64,000 nt of DNA from Natrarchaeobaculum aegyptiacum (lineage in GTDB: Archaea > Halobacteriota > Halobacteria > Halobacteriales > Natrialbaceae): contig NZ_CP019893.1 in the NCBI RefSeq assembly GCF_002156705.1, forward strand, positions 3,720,001 through 3,784,000. The letters run 5' to 3'. The position numbers and the translations under genes are program-made. Positions 15,950 to 37,499 of this stretch are shown piece by piece (the stretch's first letter is position 1; every line of letters begins with the position of its first letter). Under the pieces are notes generated by a model. The model was not told the origin of the DNA and made no database searches. It saw only the letters and a program-made list of their open reading frames with translations.

Positions 15950-16927
15950 TCAGGTCCAGCGATCCAGCCCGGTCTGGGTGACGCTCTCCTCGATCCGTTC
16001 GAATCCGCGGGCGACCTCACCGGCGTCGACGCCCCACTCCTCACAGACGTACTCGCGGGCTGCCTCGACGTCGGGCTCGAGGCTCGTCTCCACCTCGTAG
16101 TCGTCGGTCACGTTCGGGTCCCGGAAGAGCTGGCGAACCCGGTCGCCGTACTCGACGCTGTCGCCGCGGGCCTCGAGGACGCTCCACAGGTCGCCGTGTT
16201 CGGTAATCTCGGTGATTGCCGTCTTCGGGCCGATTCCCGAGACACCCTCGTTGAAGTCCGTCCCGATGAGGATGGCCGCGTCGATCAGTTGCTCGAGGGT
16301 GAGGTCGTGTTTCTCGAGTGTCGCCTCGAGATCCATCAGTTCGGGATCGCCCTTGCTCGTGAGCTGTCGGAGCGTCAGTGGCGCGCCGAACAGCAGGGCG
16401 TCGTAGTCCTCCGATCCCACGTAATCGGCGTCGCCACGACGGACCATGTGTGCGGCCTGTGCCTCTCCCTCGGCGGGTGCCTCGACGATCGGCACGTCGA
16501 GTATCTCGAGGAGCTCCCGGCTGGTCTGCTGGATAGTCTCGGTCAGCCGCTGGGTCCGCGACTCGAGCTGTGCGATGGCGACCTCGTCACCCTCCTCGCG
16601 GGCGACCTCGAGTTGTTCCTCGTAGGTCTCGCGTTGCTCCCGGCGAGACTGGATCTCGTCTTCCTTCAACTCGGAGGGACCGCCGTCGAAGACCATCACC
16701 GGCGTGACGTCGTTCTCGAAGAATTTCGGCAGGCCCTGGACGATGCCGATCAGGTTCGCCACCTCGGTCCCGTCGGCGGTGGTGTACTTGTCGCTCGAGG
16801 TCCACTTGACGGTCGTCGTCAGATACCGATAGAGCCAGTTGTGGGCGTCGACGGCGACGACGCCCTCCACGTCGTCGAAGGGAACCTCCTCGATGACCGC
16901 GATGTCCCGGAGTGCTGCGTTACCCAT
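15950..16927 (-). CDS. fen: flap endonuclease 1
   Basis: The 325-residue product trims 5' flaps during lagging-strand synthesis and repair. N-terminal metal ligands are in [16 protein letters not shown] and [15 protein letters not shown]; the central cluster is in [33 protein letters not shown] with its acidic residues intact. The H3TH DNA-binding loop is [18 protein letters not shown]. The protein ends in TQTGLDRWT, which fits a PCNA-interacting (PIP) motif and is expected for archaeal FEN1. The start at 16927 gives the normal N terminus MGNAALRDI; a TATA-like TTATGAAA lies about 30 bases upstream on the minus strand. Confidence 0.96.
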
Positions 16928-29234: not shown

Positions 29235-29520
29235 GTAACCCTGGACTAGTGGCCCGGTGCATGCGATTCTGGTCAGTGGCCGTGACGACCGCGGATGCTG
29301 CAGGAAACGATCACGCTCGCAATTCCCCGGTCACCGGAAACGGTGCCGGACCCGAATCTCACATCTGACCGAGTACCGACAGACGGCAGGCGGAGATGGC
29401 GCATCGGTAACACTCTGTTATTCGGTACTGCGAGACGGTTCCGACCCGAATACGACGATTTATCACAGAAATTACAATACCGGTTTATGCCGACCGCCGG
29501 GGGTAGCCACGTCTCGAGGC

Positions 29521-31083
29521 ATGAGCACGAAACTCGAACCGACACTCGTCGTACTCGTCGCGCTGCTGATGGTGACGTCCGGAGCGGCAGTTCTCACCAC
29601 CGCCAGTGCCTCGAGTCCGAACGCACAGGTCGATGATGTCGATCCCGACGCCGAGTGGGACGTAACGATCGAAAACGCAGACGTCGTGGTCCTCGCAGAC
29701 GATGAGGCGGCGATGGCCGGGCCGACTGATGACGACGACGCTCTCGACGAGACCGACGAGTACGAAGAAGACGACGATGCGCTCGAAGCGACTGACGATG
29801 ACGACTTCGAAGAAGTCCCCATCGAGGAGGACGAGCCTGCCGACGAGGCCGACCGAACGCTCGAGCTCGAGTCAGCCGAGGCGCTCGTCGTCCTCGACGA
29901 GCCAGTGGAGCCGGCTGACGACGAACCGACGCCGGACGACGAGATGCCAGTCACTGACGACGATGCCGGCGTCGAAGACGTCGACGCGGAAGACCGTGAG
30001 ATCACGTTCGAGCACGCGACGATCTTCGTTCACGTCCACGCCCTCGAGGACGAATTCGACGACGTCGACGTGAACGGACTCGAAGATGATCTCGACGACG
30101 CAGAAACAGCCGACGAGGAAGACGACCTCGACGACACCGAGACCGACGACGAATACGATCAGGTCGGCGATCGCATCACTGTCCACGAGATGCAACTCGA
30201 GGTAACGATCGAGAACGCGAACCTCGTCCACGTACTCGGTATCGAAGAACCGCCAACCGACGACCCACCGCTCGACGAGCCAGTCGAAGAGGAACCGACT
30301 GACGAAGCCATCGACGACGAGCCGGCTGAAGACGAACCGGTCCACGACGAACCTCCAGAAGCGCAGGATCAGATCATCGAGGAAGAGCCCATCGAAGACG
30401 ACGCTGTCGAGGACGGCGAGTACGACGACGCGGAAGCCCACGATGACGAGTACGGCGAGGAAGAACCGTCAGAGCAAGCGGTCGCTGACGAGACGCTTTC
30501 GGTCACGATCGAACAGGCCACCGTCGTCGTCGTGTACGACGGCGAGATGCCGGCTGACGAGCCAATGCCAGTCGAAACGCCTGACGAAGAGCCAATCGAA
30601 GACGACGATCCAGTTGACGACGCAATTGAGGACGACGAACCGATCGAAGAAGAACCGGTCGAAGAAGAACCGGTCGAAGAAGAACCGGTCGAAGAAGAAC
30701 CGGTCGAAGAAGAACCGGTCGAAGAAGAACCGGTCGAAGAAGAACCGGTCGAAGAAGAACCGGTCGAAGAAGAACCGGTCGAAGAAGAACCGGTCGAAGA
30801 AGAACCGGTCGAAGAAGAACCGATCGAAGAAGAACCGGTCGAAGAGGAACCGATCGAAGAAGAACCGGTCGAAGAAGAACCGGTCGACGATGACCAACTG
30901 ACCGTCACGATCGAGCAGGCGACGGTGTACGTCGTCCACGATGTCGGCGTTACCGACGACGTCCCGATCGAGGACGACCCGGAGGACCCAATCGATGACG
31001 ACGATACCGATGATACAGTCGATGACGACTACGCCGACGATGCCACCGACGATGACGAAGTAATCTCACTGCTGGCTGACTAG
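29521..31083 (+). CDS. secreted, extremely acidic repeat protein
   Basis: The 520-residue product has a Sec-type signal (LVVLVALLMVTSGAAVLTTA, residues 9-28) and no C-terminal anchor. Beyond it, about half the residues are Asp or Glu. Six short beta-like repeats of about 16 residues punctuate the acidic sequence: WDVTIENADVVVLADDE (46-62), RTLELESAEALVVLDEP, REITFEHATIFVHVHAL, LEVTIENANLVHVLGIE, LSVTIEQATVVVVYDGE and LTVTIEQATVYVVHDVG. Between the fifth and sixth is a tract of 16 near-identical five-residue units (Glu-Glu-Glu-Pro-Val/Ile). The same repeated bases leave long antisense frames open. Function unknown; a salt- or cation-binding surface polymer is possible. ATG at 29521 is used because it begins the signal peptide. 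Confidence 0.7.
   Translation: MSTKLEPTLVVLVALLMVTSGAAVLTTASASSPNAQVDDVDPDAEWDVTIENADVVVLADDEAAMAGPTDDDDALDETDEYEEDDDALEATDDDDFEEVPIEEDEPADEADRTLELESAEALVVLDEPVEPADDEPTPDDEMPVTDDDAGVEDVDAEDREITFEHATIFVHVHALEDEFDDVDVNGLEDDLDDAETADEEDDLDDTETDDEYDQVGDRITVHEMQLEVTIENANLVHVLGIEEPPTDDPPLDEPVEEEPTDEAIDDEPAEDEPVHDEPPEAQDQIIEEEPIEDDAVEDGEYDDAEAHDDEYGEEEPSEQAVADETLSVTIEQATVVVVYDGEMPADEPMPVETPDEEPIEDDDPVDDAIEDDEPIEEEPVEEEPVEEEPVEEEPVEEEPVEEEPVEEEPVEEEPVEEEPVEEEPVEEEPVEEEPIEEEPVEEEPIEEEPVEEEPVDDDQLTVTIEQATVYVVHDVGVTDDVPIEDDPEDPIDDDDTDDTVDDDYADDATDDDEVISLLAD
30646..30885 (+). repeat. 16-unit 15-bp tandem repeat (GAAGAAGAACCGGTC)
   Basis: Sixteen head-to-tail copies fill 240 bases and encode Glu-Glu-Glu-Pro-Val. 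Fourteen end in CCGGTC and two in CCGATC; one copy has GAG for the second GAA. The near identity suggests recent expansion by slippage, and the frame is kept because the unit is five codons. Confidence 0.97.
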
Positions 31084-32542: not shown

Positions 32543-35158
32543 TCAGGCGTAAAATAGCGTTGGCCGCCGCCCGGGCTCTGCCGGTTCGTCCGCGAGATCG
32601 GCCGCAGCGTCGCCCTCGAGAAGTGACTCGAGGACGTCGACGGCCGCCTCGCGGTGAAGCGGCTGGTTGTCGTTGCCACACTGGTCGTCCATCACGCAGG
32701 CGGGACAGCCGTCGACGCGGCCGCAGTCACAGTCGGCGATCAGGTCGCGAGCTCGTCGGACGACGGCCTCGAAGTTCTCGTAGATCGCGCGGGCGAACCC
32801 GAGGCCGCCGTCGATGCCGTCGTAGATGAACCAGCCGCTCGCAGGCATCTCGTCCAGTCGACCCGCAATATCGCGGACGGTGGCCTCCGCAGCGGCGGCG
32901 TTGCGTGGCGCTGGACCTTCCGCCGCGTCGATAGCACCGGTCTCGCCGGGAGGCTGAGCGAGGTGGGCGTCGAGTGAGAGCGTCGCCAGCCCACCGAGGT
33001 CGCGCTTGTCGACCATCAACTCGAGCGGGGCGACTCCGATGGTCGCGTGTTCGGCGGCGTGGAGGCCGCCCGCGTAGCCGAGGTGGGCCGTCTCTGCGAG
33101 GTCGTCCTCGAGATCCGGAACGGAGAAGTCGCGGTAGCGCTCGAGAAGCGTCTGCTCGACGTTCCGGGGAACCTCGAGCCAGCAGAGTTGCGTCTCGATC
33201 GACAGTGGCGGGTTGTCGGTCGGCAGCCCCTGCGCTCGTTTCTCGCCGCCGTCGATCTCGAGTTCGTCGTAGGTGTCGTGAGCGATGACGACGCGGCCGC
33301 GACCGACGTGGAGCCGAAAGTCGCCGATCTCGCGTGACTCCTCCGAGACGGCGTCGAGGACGGTCACGTCGGTCCGGCTTCGCGTGTAGTAGTCGACGTC
33401 CACCGGCTGGACCGTCACCGAGGGCCGGTGGGACTCGTGGTCGACTGCGACAACCTCGTACTGCTGGCCCTGGTGAAGCCGGACGGCCCCCTCGTGAAAG
33501 TCCCGCAGGACGCGTTCTTTGGCGAGTGGTTCCATCCCCGGATCGTGGTGATCGTCGAATTCCGGTGCCAGTCGAACCTCGTACTCCTCGCCCGTCGTCG
33601 CGTACAGCGAGATCGATCGCTGGGGTCGCGGCGGCCCCGCGTAAGAGACGCCGGTCTCGAGCGAGCCCGACAGCTGCCCTGCACGTCGCCACATCTCGAC
33701 GGCGCGCTCGAGGCGCTCCGGGTCCCCAAAATCCCCTGCATCGGAGCGGTCGAGCGCGAGTTCGTCCGCTGCACAGCGCAGGTGCTGGGCGAAGACGGCG
33801 TCGTTGTCCACGTCGACGACGGCGTCCTCGACGCCCGACTCGAGCAGGTAGTCGGGATTGGAGACGACGTACTGGTCCAGTGTTCGGTGGTCGGCGACGA
33901 GCACGGAGAGGGCCCGACTGGTTCCCCGGCCCGCACGGCCGATCTGCTGCCAGAACGACTGGCGCTGGCCGGGGTAGCCAAGTTGCACCGTCGCGTCCAG
34001 TTCCCCGACGTCGATGCCGAGCTCGAGGGCACTCGTGGATGCGACGCCGTCGAGGACGCCGGTCTCGAGCTGGTGTTCCGTGCTGTGGCGGGCGGTGCGT
34101 GACAGCCCCGCGTGATACGGTTCGATCGCGGCGCTGCGGTCGGGACTGGTGTAGTATCGCGTTGTCTCCTCGCGGTGGCCCAGCGCGCGCTCGACCGAGA
34201 GTTCGGCGAGTTTGCGCGAGGGAGCAAAGAGCAGCGTCTGGGCACCCTCGTAGGTCAGGTGTGAGAGGAGTCGCGGGGCGTCGACGGTGGCAGGGACCCG
34301 CTCGATGGCTGCGGCATCGTCGTCAGCCTCTCGCTCACGAAACGGCGGGTTCCAGAGCACGAGGTCTCGCGGTCCGGCCGGCGAGCCGTCTTCGTCGACG
34401 ACCGTGGCCTGTTCGTCGATCAGCACGCTCGAGTGCTCCCCGGGATTCCCGATCGTCGCGCTCGTCAGCACGAACTGCGGGTCGGCGTCGTAGTACGCGA
34501 GGACGCGCTTCAGCCGACGGACGATCCAGGCGACGTGCATCCCGTGGACGCCGGTGTACGTGTGAGACTCGTCGATGACGAGCAGCTCACAGGATGCGAG
34601 AAAGCTGGCCCACCGGTCGTGATCGTGGAGGTACGTGTTTACGCCAGCGAAGTTCGTGATTATCACGTCCGACTCCTCACGAATCCGCCGTCGATCGCCG
34701 GATTTCGTGTCGCCGTCGTAGACGCCGACCGCGACCTCGAGCCCGAGTTCGTCGAAGAAGTCGGTCAGCGCGCGTTCCTGGTCTCGCGAGAGAGCTTTCG
34801 TCGGGTAACACAGATAGGCCGTCGAGGAGTCACCGCGAGCGCGGGCCTCGAGGAGGTTCCGGGCGATCTGGAGCGCGTAGATTCGGCTTTTTCCCGAAGA
34901 CGTGCTCGTCGAGACACAGACGTGCTCGCCGCGATCGAGCGCCTCGAGCACGGTCGCCTGATGGGAGTAGAGATCGTCCGCGAGCGCACCGGCGAGTTCG
35001 GGGGGGAGCACCGAATCAGGCGGGACCGTCGACGCGGGTCGGCCCGGACGCTCGAGGACGGTGACGTCCGCCGTCGTTCCAGCGCGCGGGAACGAGTCGA
35101 CGAGTTCGTCACCGGTGATCGGCACGCGGTCGCCAGCTTGGGGAGTGTCGTGAGTCAT
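32543..35158 (-). CDS. DEAD/DEAH helicase with C-terminal zinc domain, MrfA/Hrq1-like
   Basis: The 871-residue helicase shows Q-motif-like LYSHQATVLEAL, Walker A STSTSSGKSRIYALQ near residues 80-95, Walker B LVIDESHTYTG near 192, motif III FVLTSATIGNP, and motif VI WQQIGRAGRG. A C-terminal DUF1998/MZB-type domain carries four Cys in CDCGRVDGCPACVMDDQCG near 808-828 to bind zinc. This is the layout of MrfA/YprA and Hrq1 3'-5' DNA helicases. The upstream gene, 3 bases away, encodes a DEDD exonuclease, matching the bacterial MrfA-MrfB pair that repairs mitomycin-type adducts. A role in adduct or crosslink repair is inference from that pairing. Confidence 0.85.
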   Translation of the reverse strand: MTHDTPQAGDRVPITGDELVDSFPRAGTTADVTVLERPGRPASTVPPDSVLPPELAGALADDLYSHQATVLEALDRGEHVCVSTSTSSGKSRIYALQIARNLLEARARGDSSTAYLCYPTKALSRDQERALTDFFDELGLEVAVGVYDGDTKSGDRRRIREESDVIITNFAGVNTYLHDHDRWASFLASCELLVIDESHTYTGVHGMHVAWIVRRLKRVLAYYDADPQFVLTSATIGNPGEHSSVLIDEQATVVDEDGSPAGPRDLVLWNPPFREREADDDAAAIERVPATVDAPRLLSHLTYEGAQTLLFAPSRKLAELSVERALGHREETTRYYTSPDRSAAIEPYHAGLSRTARHSTEHQLETGVLDGVASTSALELGIDVGELDATVQLGYPGQRQSFWQQIGRAGRGTSRALSVLVADHRTLDQYVVSNPDYLLESGVEDAVVDVDNDAVFAQHLRCAADELALDRSDAGDFGDPERLERAVEMWRRAGQLSGSLETGVSYAGPPRPQRSISLYATTGEEYEVRLAPEFDDHHDPGMEPLAKERVLRDFHEGAVRLHQGQQYEVVAVDHESHRPSVTVQPVDVDYYTRSRTDVTVLDAVSEESREIGDFRLHVGRGRVVIAHDTYDELEIDGGEKRAQGLPTDNPPLSIETQLCWLEVPRNVEQTLLERYRDFSVPDLEDDLAETAHLGYAGGLHAAEHATIGVAPLELMVDKRDLGGLATLSLDAHLAQPPGETGAIDAAEGPAPRNAAAAEATVRDIAGRLDEMPASGWFIYDGIDGGLGFARAIYENFEAVVRRARDLIADCDCGRVDGCPACVMDDQCGNDNQPLHREAAVDVLESLLEGDAAADLADEPAEPGRRPTLFYA

Positions 35159-35161
35159 CGC

Positions 35162-36745
35162 TCAGAAATCACCGAGTCCGGTCTGTTCGGTCGTCGGCCG
35201 TCCGGCCGATTCGGTCGGCGTTCCGTCGTCGCCGGGCGATCGATCGGACGCACCCGCACGACCGCCCCGCGACCCACGGATCGACCGCCGCGGTGTGTCC
35301 GCAAGCCGTTCGTAAACGTGCCAGAGCGCACGGCAATCGTCCTCGCAGTAGGCCTCGTGGCGGTCCCATTCGAGTTCTTCGCCCGTGCGTGCGAAGCGCT
35401 GGTAGGCCGCTGCCGTCTCCGCACCGTCGAGACCGGTGCCAGCATCCTCGTAGCCGAGGGCAGTCGCCACGTCCTCGAGCTGATTCGTCCGGCCGGGAAG
35501 GATCGCGTTGTCCTCGCGGACGGCCCAGTCGTAGAGGTCGTACTTCGGAATCGACTCCCACTCGTCGTGGTAGTAGGAGACGTGCCGGGCGATGAACGAC
35601 CCGAGGTAGCGATAGTCGAACTGCCAGCCGTTCCAGGTGACCAGTGCCCGGTCCGGGTGGACGTCGAGCAACCAGTCACAGAAGGACTCGAGCACCCGCA
35701 CCGTATCGGTCGGATCGTCGCGTTCGACGAACGCGTGGTGATCGTCGCTCTTGGGGTCGTAGACCCCGATCTGCCAGATGATCGTCGGCGAGAGCCCGTC
35801 GGTCTCGACGTCCAGACAGAGCGGCGGTCTCGACCAGTTCTCACCCGGCAGCGGGTCGTCGGTCACACGTCTGGGCTCGCCCGACTCGAGCACTCGAGCG
35901 TGAGCGTGCATCGTTTCGGCGCGTTCGCGGCCGATCCCGGGGAGCGTCGTGAGGGAGTCGATCGGCGTTTCGAGGAGGTCGCTACGAGTTTCGACGCCCT
36001 CGTCGGACAGCCGTCCGGCCGTCTTCGGGCCGACGCCGGAGACGGACTCGAGGCCGAAGTTCGTCACGGCGTGGGTATCGACCCGTTCGACACCGTCGTC
36101 GGTGAGTTCGACCAGTGCGAACGAGGTCCGGTCGTCGTAGGCCTCGACGGGACCAGCGCCGACGACGCGGACCGAGACGCAGTCGTCGACGTGCCGTGGG
36201 GGAGCCGTTGCAGGATCGTGGTCGACGGTGCGAATTTCGCCCGACTCCGACTCGAGGTGCCAGCGTTCGTCGTACCCCGCTGGCTCGCTCGCGGTCAGGA
36301 GCGTCGTCCCCCGGTCAGTCGGCAACGTCTCGGCGAGGTCACGAGCGTGGGTGAGCGAGGTGGTCAGCTCGGTCGGTCGGACGATCGTCTCGACCTGATC
36401 ACACAACAGCGTGATCGGATCGTCGCTCACCGAGGCCCACTGGTCGTCCACGACCGAGGCGTCGACCCCCTCGAGTCGTGGAACGACGCCCACTGCAACG
36501 CCACCATCGTCGTCGATCGACCATTCGTCGACTGGATCGCCGCCAGCCTCGAGCGGCGGGTGAACCACCGGAACGTCGAACGCGCGACGTGCGCGCGCGA
36601 AGGTCTGTGGTCTACGGGCCGGCCCCGGAACCCAGACCGCCTCTGGCTCGAGCGTCGCCGCCACGTCCTCGAGTGTCGCCGCCGGCCGATCGGCGACTGC
36701 AGAGGGTGGGAGCGCGAGGAGACGAACACCTGCTCGAGCGATCAT
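35162..36745 (-). CDS. MrfB/YprB-like DEDD exonuclease with HhH and C-terminal PIP-like motif
   Basis: The 527-residue product has tandem helix-hairpin-helix motifs near residues 230-285 (VSGVGPKTAGRLSDEG; LPGIGRERAETMHAHARVL) and a DEDD 3'-5' exonuclease domain near 310-470. Metal-binding acids are in CLDVETDGLSPTIIWQIGVY, TWNGWQFDYRYLGSFI and HEAYCEDDCRALWHVYERL. The protein ends TEQTGLGDF, which resembles a PCNA-interacting motif (Q-x-x-L-x-x-F); FEN1 in this window ends in a similar TQTGLDRWT. The N-terminal 220 residues are unassigned. The start at 36745 is preferred to 36790, which only adds Arg/Ser-rich residues. It forms an operon with the helicase and is divergent from the toxin-antitoxin pair. 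Confidence 0.82.
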   Translation of the reverse strand: MIARAGVRLLALPPSAVADRPAATLEDVAATLEPEAVWVPGPARRPQTFARARRAFDVPVVHPPLEAGGDPVDEWSIDDDGGVAVGVVPRLEGVDASVVDDQWASVSDDPITLLCDQVETIVRPTELTTSLTHARDLAETLPTDRGTTLLTASEPAGYDERWHLESESGEIRTVDHDPATAPPRHVDDCVSVRVVGAGPVEAYDDRTSFALVELTDDGVERVDTHAVTNFGLESVSGVGPKTAGRLSDEGVETRSDLLETPIDSLTTLPGIGRERAETMHAHARVLESGEPRRVTDDPLPGENWSRPPLCLDVETDGLSPTIIWQIGVYDPKSDDHHAFVERDDPTDTVRVLESFCDWLLDVHPDRALVTWNGWQFDYRYLGSFIARHVSYYHDEWESIPKYDLYDWAVREDNAILPGRTNQLEDVATALGYEDAGTGLDGAETAAAYQRFARTGEELEWDRHEAYCEDDCRALWHVYERLADTPRRSIRGSRGGRAGASDRSPGDDGTPTESAGRPTTEQTGLGDF

Positions 36746-36865: not shown

Positions 36866-37110
36866 TGGGGGATAGAGAGTATCGAAATGTACGACTAACT
36901 GAGGACGCCTATCAACAGCTTAAACGCCGAAAACAGCCCGGAGAGTCGTTTTCGGATACCGTAGAGCGGATCGCTGGTGAACGGTCGTTGCTCGACCTCG
37001 CCGGAATACTAACCGAGGACGAGGCCGATCAGATGCGAGATGCAATTCGTAATCGGGAAGAGCAGTCGCGTGATCGACTCGACCGGTTTACAGACCGGAT
37101 GGAATCGTGA
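36865..37110 (+). CDS. vapB: VapB-like antitoxin
   Basis: The 81-residue product begins YRNVRLTEDAYQQLKRRKQP, a ribbon-helix-helix-like DNA-binding start with a beta strand and helix, followed by SFSDTVERIAGERSLLDLAG and a long charged helix. This is the pattern of archaeal VapB family antitoxins (DUF217 type). It overlaps the toxin by 4 bases (GTGA), as is usual for such pairs. It likely binds the toxin's active site with its C-terminal half and the upstream dyad with the N-terminal half; both are inference. Confidence 0.85.
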   Translation: MGDREYRNVRLTEDAYQQLKRRKQPGESFSDTVERIAGERSLLDLAGILTEDEADQMRDAIRNREEQSRDRLDRFTDRMES

Positions 37111-37499
37111 TCGTCGATACAGACGTCCTCATCGACGTAATGCAGGATTCTGACCGAGCCGTCGGGCAGATCCGAGAATTGGAACACGAGGGAGTCCCAC
37201 TCCACATTTCGTCGATGTCACTATTCGAGCTGAATCACAGCGTCGAACGGGTTTCAGATTCAGACGCGAGACGCCGTCGGATTGAGGCCGTACTCGAGAC
37301 CAAACCAGTCTATCCAGCAGACGAGGCGGTGATGAAGAAAGCAGGGCGGGTTGACGGCCGACTGACCACAGATGGGAACGCAATTGGGGTCGGTGATACG
37401 ATCATTGCTGCAACTGCACTCGTCCACGAAGAAGCCGTCCTCACGAGAAACGTCGATCATTTCGACCGAATTGACGGTCTCGACGTTTGTCCGTACTAA
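37107..37499 (+). CDS. vapC: VapC-like PIN-domain toxin
   Basis: The 130-residue PIN protein starts at a GTG in the overlap with vapB. Acidic residues of the nuclease site are in VDTDVLIDVMQ (Asp 4 and Asp 6 region), MSLFELNHSVERV, GVGDTIIAATALVHEEAVLT (central Asp) and RNVDHFDRIDGL. VapC toxins cut RNA, often tRNA, when released from VapB. All expected acids seem present, so the toxin should be active. The pair is divergent from the exonuclease gene and upstream of thyA by 70 bases. Confidence 0.9.
   Translation: MIVDTDVLIDVMQDSDRAVGQIRELEHEGVPLHISSMSLFELNHSVERVSDSDARRRRIEAVLETKPVYPADEAVMKKAGRVDGRLTTDGNAIGVGDTIIAATALVHEEAVLTRNVDHFDRIDGLDVCPY

Follow-up and report, generated by a model that had tools for sequence, protein, structure and literature searches.

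The system closest to the gene pair described here is that of B. subtilis, in which MrfA (YprA) and MrfB (YprB) are likewise adjacent and combine an MZB-domain SF2 helicase with an RNase_H_2/DnaQ-type DEDD exonuclease. MrfB has been called a DEDDh enzyme, has a structure nearer to that of DEDDy enzymes, and carries a C-terminal TPR domain; how MrfAB reaches lesions in bacteria, and whether other factors help, is open (PMC11194089). The same paper does not mention a clamp motif for MrfB. A survey of YprA proteins recognizes two branches of the family, one for repair, with MrfB homologues, and one for defence (PMC12458937), and haloarchaea enter the MrfAB/YprA literature that we searched only there, as halophilic archaea, in connection with BRIGADE defence systems. 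A review of repair in Haloferax mentions neither MrfA nor Hrq1. The preliminary description of the DNA studied here knew of no account of a PCNA link in this family, and the literature searched, with the original MrfAB genetics lying outside it, is in agreement, as it mentions neither PCNA nor a PIP motif together with MrfAB/YprA. Such an absence is no proof of novelty.

We analysed a 64,000-nucleotide stretch of the chromosome of the haloarchaeon Natrarchaeobaculum aegyptiacum (NZ_CP019893.1, 3720001-3784000), here called the window, whose numbering is used throughout. The pair, with all of its features given below, lies on the minus strand. Upstream is the gene for an MrfB-like, DEDDy-type 3'-5' exonuclease (527 aa, ATG start, 35162..36745), followed by that for an MrfA/YprA-type SF2 helicase (871 aa, 32543..35158). 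Between the exonuclease stop and the helicase start there are three bases (35159-35161), and both reading frames and the gap are as they had been reported. Exonuclease and helicase form an almost universal unit: among 140 exonuclease loci with flanking ORFs inspected (60 from genomes of the class Halobacteria and 80 further loci), 139 contain the helicase. A wider conserved neighbourhood was rejected, as the rpl11/cutA neighbours of the window pair were found in 0 of the 140 loci within the fetched flanks. The N. aegyptiacum genome encodes no MZB protein other than the window helicase, and its second RNase_H_2 protein, encoded elsewhere, has no PIP-like tail of the kind described below. Among the ORFs beside the pair, none was recognized as a methyltransferase, PLD, or other effector gene such as make up the operons of YprA-type defence systems (DISARM, Dpd, Druantia, and ARMADA). 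The surroundings of the pair include two further items. Just upstream of the exonuclease gene, at 36868-37499, a small putative antitoxin ORF is followed by a PIN-like ORF (37107-37499), likely a toxin-antitoxin pair when judged by eye. At 29257-31083 there is a long acidic ORF with ~15 (EEEPV)-type repeats, apparently exported, with spurious ORFs in other frames nearby.

By its profile matches, the helicase is a clear relative of MrfA, as had been proposed. In the PDB, 6znp (YprA/MrfA) matches at E 1.6e-97 over residues 51-665 plus the MZB at 776-823, and the next match stands at 2.4e-16. A DEAD and Helicase_C core is followed by the MZB ("MrfA Zn-binding domain", PF09369, E 3.9e-16; residues 760-822, 32693..32881), with Pfam matches above cut-off and with invariant DExH and Cys residues. 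The C-terminal Cys cluster noted earlier is present, with five invariant cysteines (810, 812, 818, 821, and 827) rather than four, and runs just past the end of the MZB. The helicase also ends in a conserved short tail, the second of the pair, which reads RRPTLFYA (32546..32569) and recurs across loci. After a variable linker, helicases end in RRPxLFY[AS] in 67 loci and in an RRPPASIS-like sequence in 20, and these ends are absent from 30 loci of the other of two exonuclease clades. No other N. aegyptiacum protein with an RRPTLFYA-type C-terminus was found.

The exonuclease is a composite protein. Its AlphaFold model, built on a 33-row alignment, has a mean pLDDT of 87.7 and falls below 50 over residues 490-527, which are predicted to be disordered. 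Pfam recognizes HHH_5 at 232-284 (E 1.8e-12) and RNase_H_2 (PF13482) at 309-481 (E 1e-30). The N-domain (residues 1-230, 36056..36745), predicted alone at a pLDDT of 89.8, resembles calcineurin-like phosphoesterases along its whole length in fold searches with the model: every Foldseek match at E<=0.001 is a phosphoesterase, and the top 50 VIA-align matches are all phosphoesterase-fold proteins (best Z 10.9 over 181 residues). Because D27 alone among its acidic residues is near-invariant, and the 33 sequences share no conserved His or Asn, we read this domain as an inactivated phosphoesterase fold, a putative pseudo-phosphoesterase with no conserved metal ligands fused to the nuclease. A tandem helix-hairpin-helix, or (HhH)2, domain comes next (residues 232-284, 35894..36052), whose PDB profile matches include the RadA/Rad51 N-domain, NusA, and eL32. 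The exonuclease domain itself (residues 305-486, 35288..35833) aligns with the PolB-family proofreading domain 5mdn at a VIA-align Z of 16.2 (168 residues, rmsd 2.7). Its catalytic residues D312, E314, D377, and D470 are invariant in the 33 aligned homologues, and as the fifth, Tyr466 within Y-x3-D, is invariant too, the enzyme is placed in the DEDDy class. Beyond this domain lies a hypervariable linker predicted to be disordered (residues 487-519, 35189..35287; pLDDT below 50). Mean pairwise identity among the 33 homologues is 54% in the exonuclease core and 20% in linker residues 484-519.

At the end of this linker, within the disordered stretch of the model, the protein closes on the PIP-like tail EQTGLGDF (residues 520-527, 35165..35188), exactly as it had first been read. 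Conservation returns here: pairwise identity over the last seven residues is 69%, with Q521 and L524 at 100% in the 33 aligned representatives. The preliminary description had proposed a search for Q-x-x-L-x-x-F in haloarchaeal C termini, and the motif proved to be conserved in all 138 intact helicase-linked loci, which end in Q-x-x-[L/I]-x-x-[F/W] (once with I for F/W) followed by 0-3 residues; the pattern scored was Q-x-x-[LIM]-x-x-[FWYI], allowing up to four residues behind it. Judged by the last 150 aa, these loci comprise 118 distinct ones, and they include relatives down to ~30% identity. The observation of a gene pair with this tail is thus confirmed as real. The other two of the 140 loci are an exonuclease cut by an in-frame stop, whose second fragment still ends in EQTGLGDF (L182), and a distant protein that has neither a helicase in its locus nor the tail (L078). 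Haloarchaeal RNase_H_2 paralogues without a helicase are also without the tail (L078, L100, L275, and L276). A tree of the exonucleases separates two clades, one with Q-x-G-L ends (88 rows) and one with mostly Q-G-x-L ends (30 rows), and both keep the Q..L..[F/W] motif.

Within N. aegyptiacum, the same kind of ending is found on candidate and established clients of the clamp, of which the genome encodes a single PCNA. FEN1, our reference for a PIP tail (15953..16927, minus strand; Pfam XPG_N and XPG_I), ends in TQTGLDRWT, one residue longer than the PIP-like TQTGLDRW first given. Only 5 of 730 gene calls (0.7%) end in Q-x-x-[LIM]-x-x-[FWY] plus 0-3 residues, the calls being the longest ORFs in an 864 kb genome sample, a procedure that misses genes under longer spurious ORFs, such as the window exonuclease. 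Three of the five are known clients of PCNA, namely FEN1, RNase HII, which ends in EQTGLGQF and is thus near-identical to the exonuclease tail, and PolY (QASLTDFE). Set against a rate of 0.7%, the presence of the tail on every intact helicase-linked exonuclease homologue indicates more than chance. Searching the whole genome with a DNA pattern that encodes Q-x-x-L-x-x-[FW]-stop brings in a UDG (QSRLDGF) and a Hel308-type helicase (QSSLGDF). A FAD-dependent oxidoreductase and a few ORFs without assignment match as well, the former a clear non-client and presumably a chance match. In the Hel308-type helicase, encoded near genome position 1681786, a linker leads to the end NQSSLGDF, which is PIP-like in its own right.

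The PIP consensus is Q-x-x-h-x-x-a-a, classically with two aromatics. The exonuclease tail has a single F or W and lacks the second consecutive aromatic, as do RNase HII, UDG, and the Hel308-type helicase of the same organism. In Haloferax, the pocket of PCNA that receives PIP motifs is less hydrophobic and shallower (PMC2737543), and the core of the PCNA interactome in archaea includes FEN1 and RNase HII (PMC4929162). That the exonuclease would be tethered to PCNA through its tail is well supported by sequence.

We favor, as the probable reading, a haloarchaeal helicase-exonuclease repair module that is MrfAB-like in action and tethered to the replication clamp. By comparison with MrfA, the helicase would unwind the duplex at a lesion, and the DEDDy exonuclease, given its fold and invariant catalytic residues, would degrade the exposed strand in the 3'-5' direction while the (HhH)2 domain may hold the DNA. 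The Q-x-x-L-x-x-F peptide, on its flexible linker, would, as its sequence strongly suggests, occupy the PIP pocket of PCNA, which could bring the pair to forks or to sites of repair synthesis. The N-domain, with its dead phosphoesterase-like fold, probably serves as a scaffold for protein binding and might, more speculatively, receive the helicase. By analogy with MrfAB, from which the type of lesion is borrowed, the haloarchaeal pair would serve crosslink or adduct repair. Two features of the exonuclease count against such a module, namely the single aromatic in the tail and several departures from MrfB. If it holds, a conserved clamp-docking tail in archaea would supply a specific mechanism of recruitment.

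Other explanations of the tail were weighed against its variation among loci. One is that it is kept as DNA, for the ribosome-binding site of the downstream helicase gene, and not for the peptide. In the window, GGTGAT lies within the tail codons (35168..35173), 9 bases before the helicase ATG, where it could overlap a Shine-Dalgarno sequence, and the tail Asp codon is enriched in GAT (48 GAT/59 GAC vs a background of 1029 GAT/3432 GAC). However, GGT or AGT followed by GAT recurs mostly in the Natrialbaceae clade, and other clades write the same peptide with ACC GAC TTC, GCC GAC TTC, TCG GAC TGG, and so on. The supposed site comes only after Q and L, the most conserved residues, and exonuclease genes separated from the helicase gene by hundreds of bases keep the tail all the same (L065, L075, and L250). 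Because synonymous codons differ along the tail and F and W exchange among the 118 distinct loci, the peptide itself appears to be selected; on these codon comparisons, selection on the tail is shown here to act at the protein level. Codon variation and distant helicases thus largely refute a ribosome-binding artefact, which we consider highly improbable and reject, save for a minor overlap in Natrialbaceae, where part of the tail DNA looks like such a site and adds a nucleotide-level constraint. It is also quite unlikely, if somewhat less so, that the tail is a short linear motif for a partner other than PCNA, such as RPA or the paired helicase. At the end of a disordered linker, C-terminal motifs of any sort would look alike, and the tail occurs only in helicase-linked copies. 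Still, Q-x-x-L-x-x-F/W is the PIP pattern and is shared with the RNase HII of the same genome. From one exonuclease clade to the other the C-terminal tails of the helicases differ completely, yet Q..L..F/W stays constant in the exonuclease tail, and the methanogen pairs described below keep the helicase and not the tail.

A further question is what the pair is for, and here its distribution matters. A strong exonuclease match occurs in about 110 of 292 sampled Halobacteria genomes, a patchy pattern, and 47 plasmid records have a match, which is weak except in about 36 that hold full-type relatives. Patchy and often plasmid-borne occurrence is unusual for core repair and, with so many plasmid copies, leaves room for a role in defence. 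The pair could accordingly be mainly an anti-mobile-element module, or a plasmid-encoded one for defence or competition, and the tail would then take it to forks replicating an invader or its own host plasmid. Besides the plasmid copies, this account draws on one plasmid subclade (L058, L062, L218, L238, and L282) with a cassette of PLD, two small ORFs, a ThiF/E1 adenylyltransferase, a second MZB helicase, the exonuclease, and the helicase. The ThiF protein of the cassette matches PADLOC E1-E2 models. In the copy on a Haloprofundus halobius plasmid (L282, 1337-13028), the exonuclease is PIP-tailed and the ThiF/E1 protein has a weak JAB match; cassettes of this type are possibly an uncatalogued, defence-like arrangement. 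Yet very few of the 140 loci were found to have cassette genes next to them. In the family to which the window belongs, a strong match is present in about 60 of 74 sampled genomes. The window helicase matches PADLOC defence models weakly and through generic helicase motors only, and the YprA branch associated with MrfB is the repair branch (PMC12458937). On balance, we regard a mainly defensive or competitive module as unlikely. Another plasmid-borne pair lies on pHS3 of Halobacterium salinarum R1 (L283, 8590-13190), in which the exonuclease tail reads TQGTLADFSR; a third gene, for a small RNase H-like protein of 214 aa, follows this pair. It is conceivable, though we hold the idea only tentatively, that the exonuclease is no relative of MrfB and that the pair is a separate, clamp-coupled haloarchaeal machine for excision or processing at forks, with plasmid copies serving defence or maintenance. 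We give the same tentative standing to its proposed makeup, an MrfA-type helicase working with a chimera that joins a dead phosphoesterase domain, of the kind seen in polymerase B-subunits, to (HhH)2, a DEDDy exonuclease resembling that of PolB, and a PIP tail.

Returning to the clamp-tethered repair module that we favor, its likeness to MrfAB is clearest in the helicase, which aligns with the MrfA structure over nearly its whole length. The exonuclease core of MrfB, like the haloarchaeal one, resembles PolB proofreading domains (PMC11194089). By contrast, MrfB has a DEDDh site (His258-x3-Asp262) where the haloarchaeal enzyme has a DEDDy site with Tyr466 in Y-x3-D. MrfB also pairs a disordered N-terminus with its C-terminal TPR, whereas the haloarchaeal exonuclease has a phosphoesterase-like N-domain, (HhH)2, and a linker with the PIP-like tail. 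We looked in it for two features of MrfB and found neither the DEDDh histidine nor a TPR, for which there is no Pfam match in a protein that ends in a disordered linker after its exonuclease domain. An exonuclease profile search of the PDB did not find the MrfB chain by sequence, and MrfB 8UN9 is not among the best 50 Foldseek or VIA-align matches, which is compatible with some similarity between the two. The original equation of the pair with MrfA-MrfB stands for the helicase and for gene adjacency and holds only in part for the exonuclease, which departs from a standard MrfB in that it is DEDDy, has no TPR, and contains HHH and a phosphoesterase-like N-domain.

Two other groups of known proteins share parts of this architecture. 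The TM0106/TIGR03491 family of RecB-like nucleases has HHH followed by RNase_H_2 and matches exonuclease residues 226-479 below threshold (score 48 vs a cut-off of 97). In contrast to that family, the haloarchaeal set features a phosphoesterase-like N-domain, a helicase partner, and a PIP-like tail. Archaeal clients with a C-terminal PIP (FEN1, RNase HII, NucS, and NreA) carry, like the exonuclease, a Q-x-x-h-x-x-aromatic motif that ends a flexible tail, and none of them is an MrfAB-type helicase-exonuclease pair. NreA also acts in PCNA-dependent mitomycin repair in haloarchaea, including Haloferax (PMC4929162, PMC7776575); it works with UvrABC. If the exonuclease tail does dock on the clamp, the list of archaeal PCNA clients would gain a helicase-exonuclease pair beside NreA, the other PCNA-dependent factor of mitomycin repair.

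The closest archaeal counterparts come from methanogens, a label based on where these genomes fall in the phylum. When the phylum was searched by profile, no full-length exonuclease relatives were returned outside the class Halobacteria, only HHH or HHH-RNase_H_2 matches, and one of these, taken as a query in turn, had matches in 42 of 197 genomes. Most of the 30 loci inspected (L286-L315) have an adjacent or overlapping YprA-type helicase. These pairs share with the haloarchaeal one the order of HHH before exonuclease and a helicase gene next to or overlapping it, and since they have both, the pairing of HHH with a helicase is older or wider than the haloarchaea. Tandem HhH motifs had been put forward as an archaeal addition to the bacterial system; they are indeed present, and we reject them as a haloarchaeal novelty because methanogen exonucleases have HHH too. 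The methanogen exonucleases differ in having a DEDDh site, H-N-x-x-D in all that could be read, and a shorter, unrelated N-terminus. Little or nothing follows their last catalytic helix, and a PIP-like tail is present in 0 of 30. These loci are apparently an archaeal MrfAB-like pair without the clamp tail, and so it is the PIP-like tail, the DEDDy site, and the phosphoesterase-like domain that mark the haloarchaeal form.
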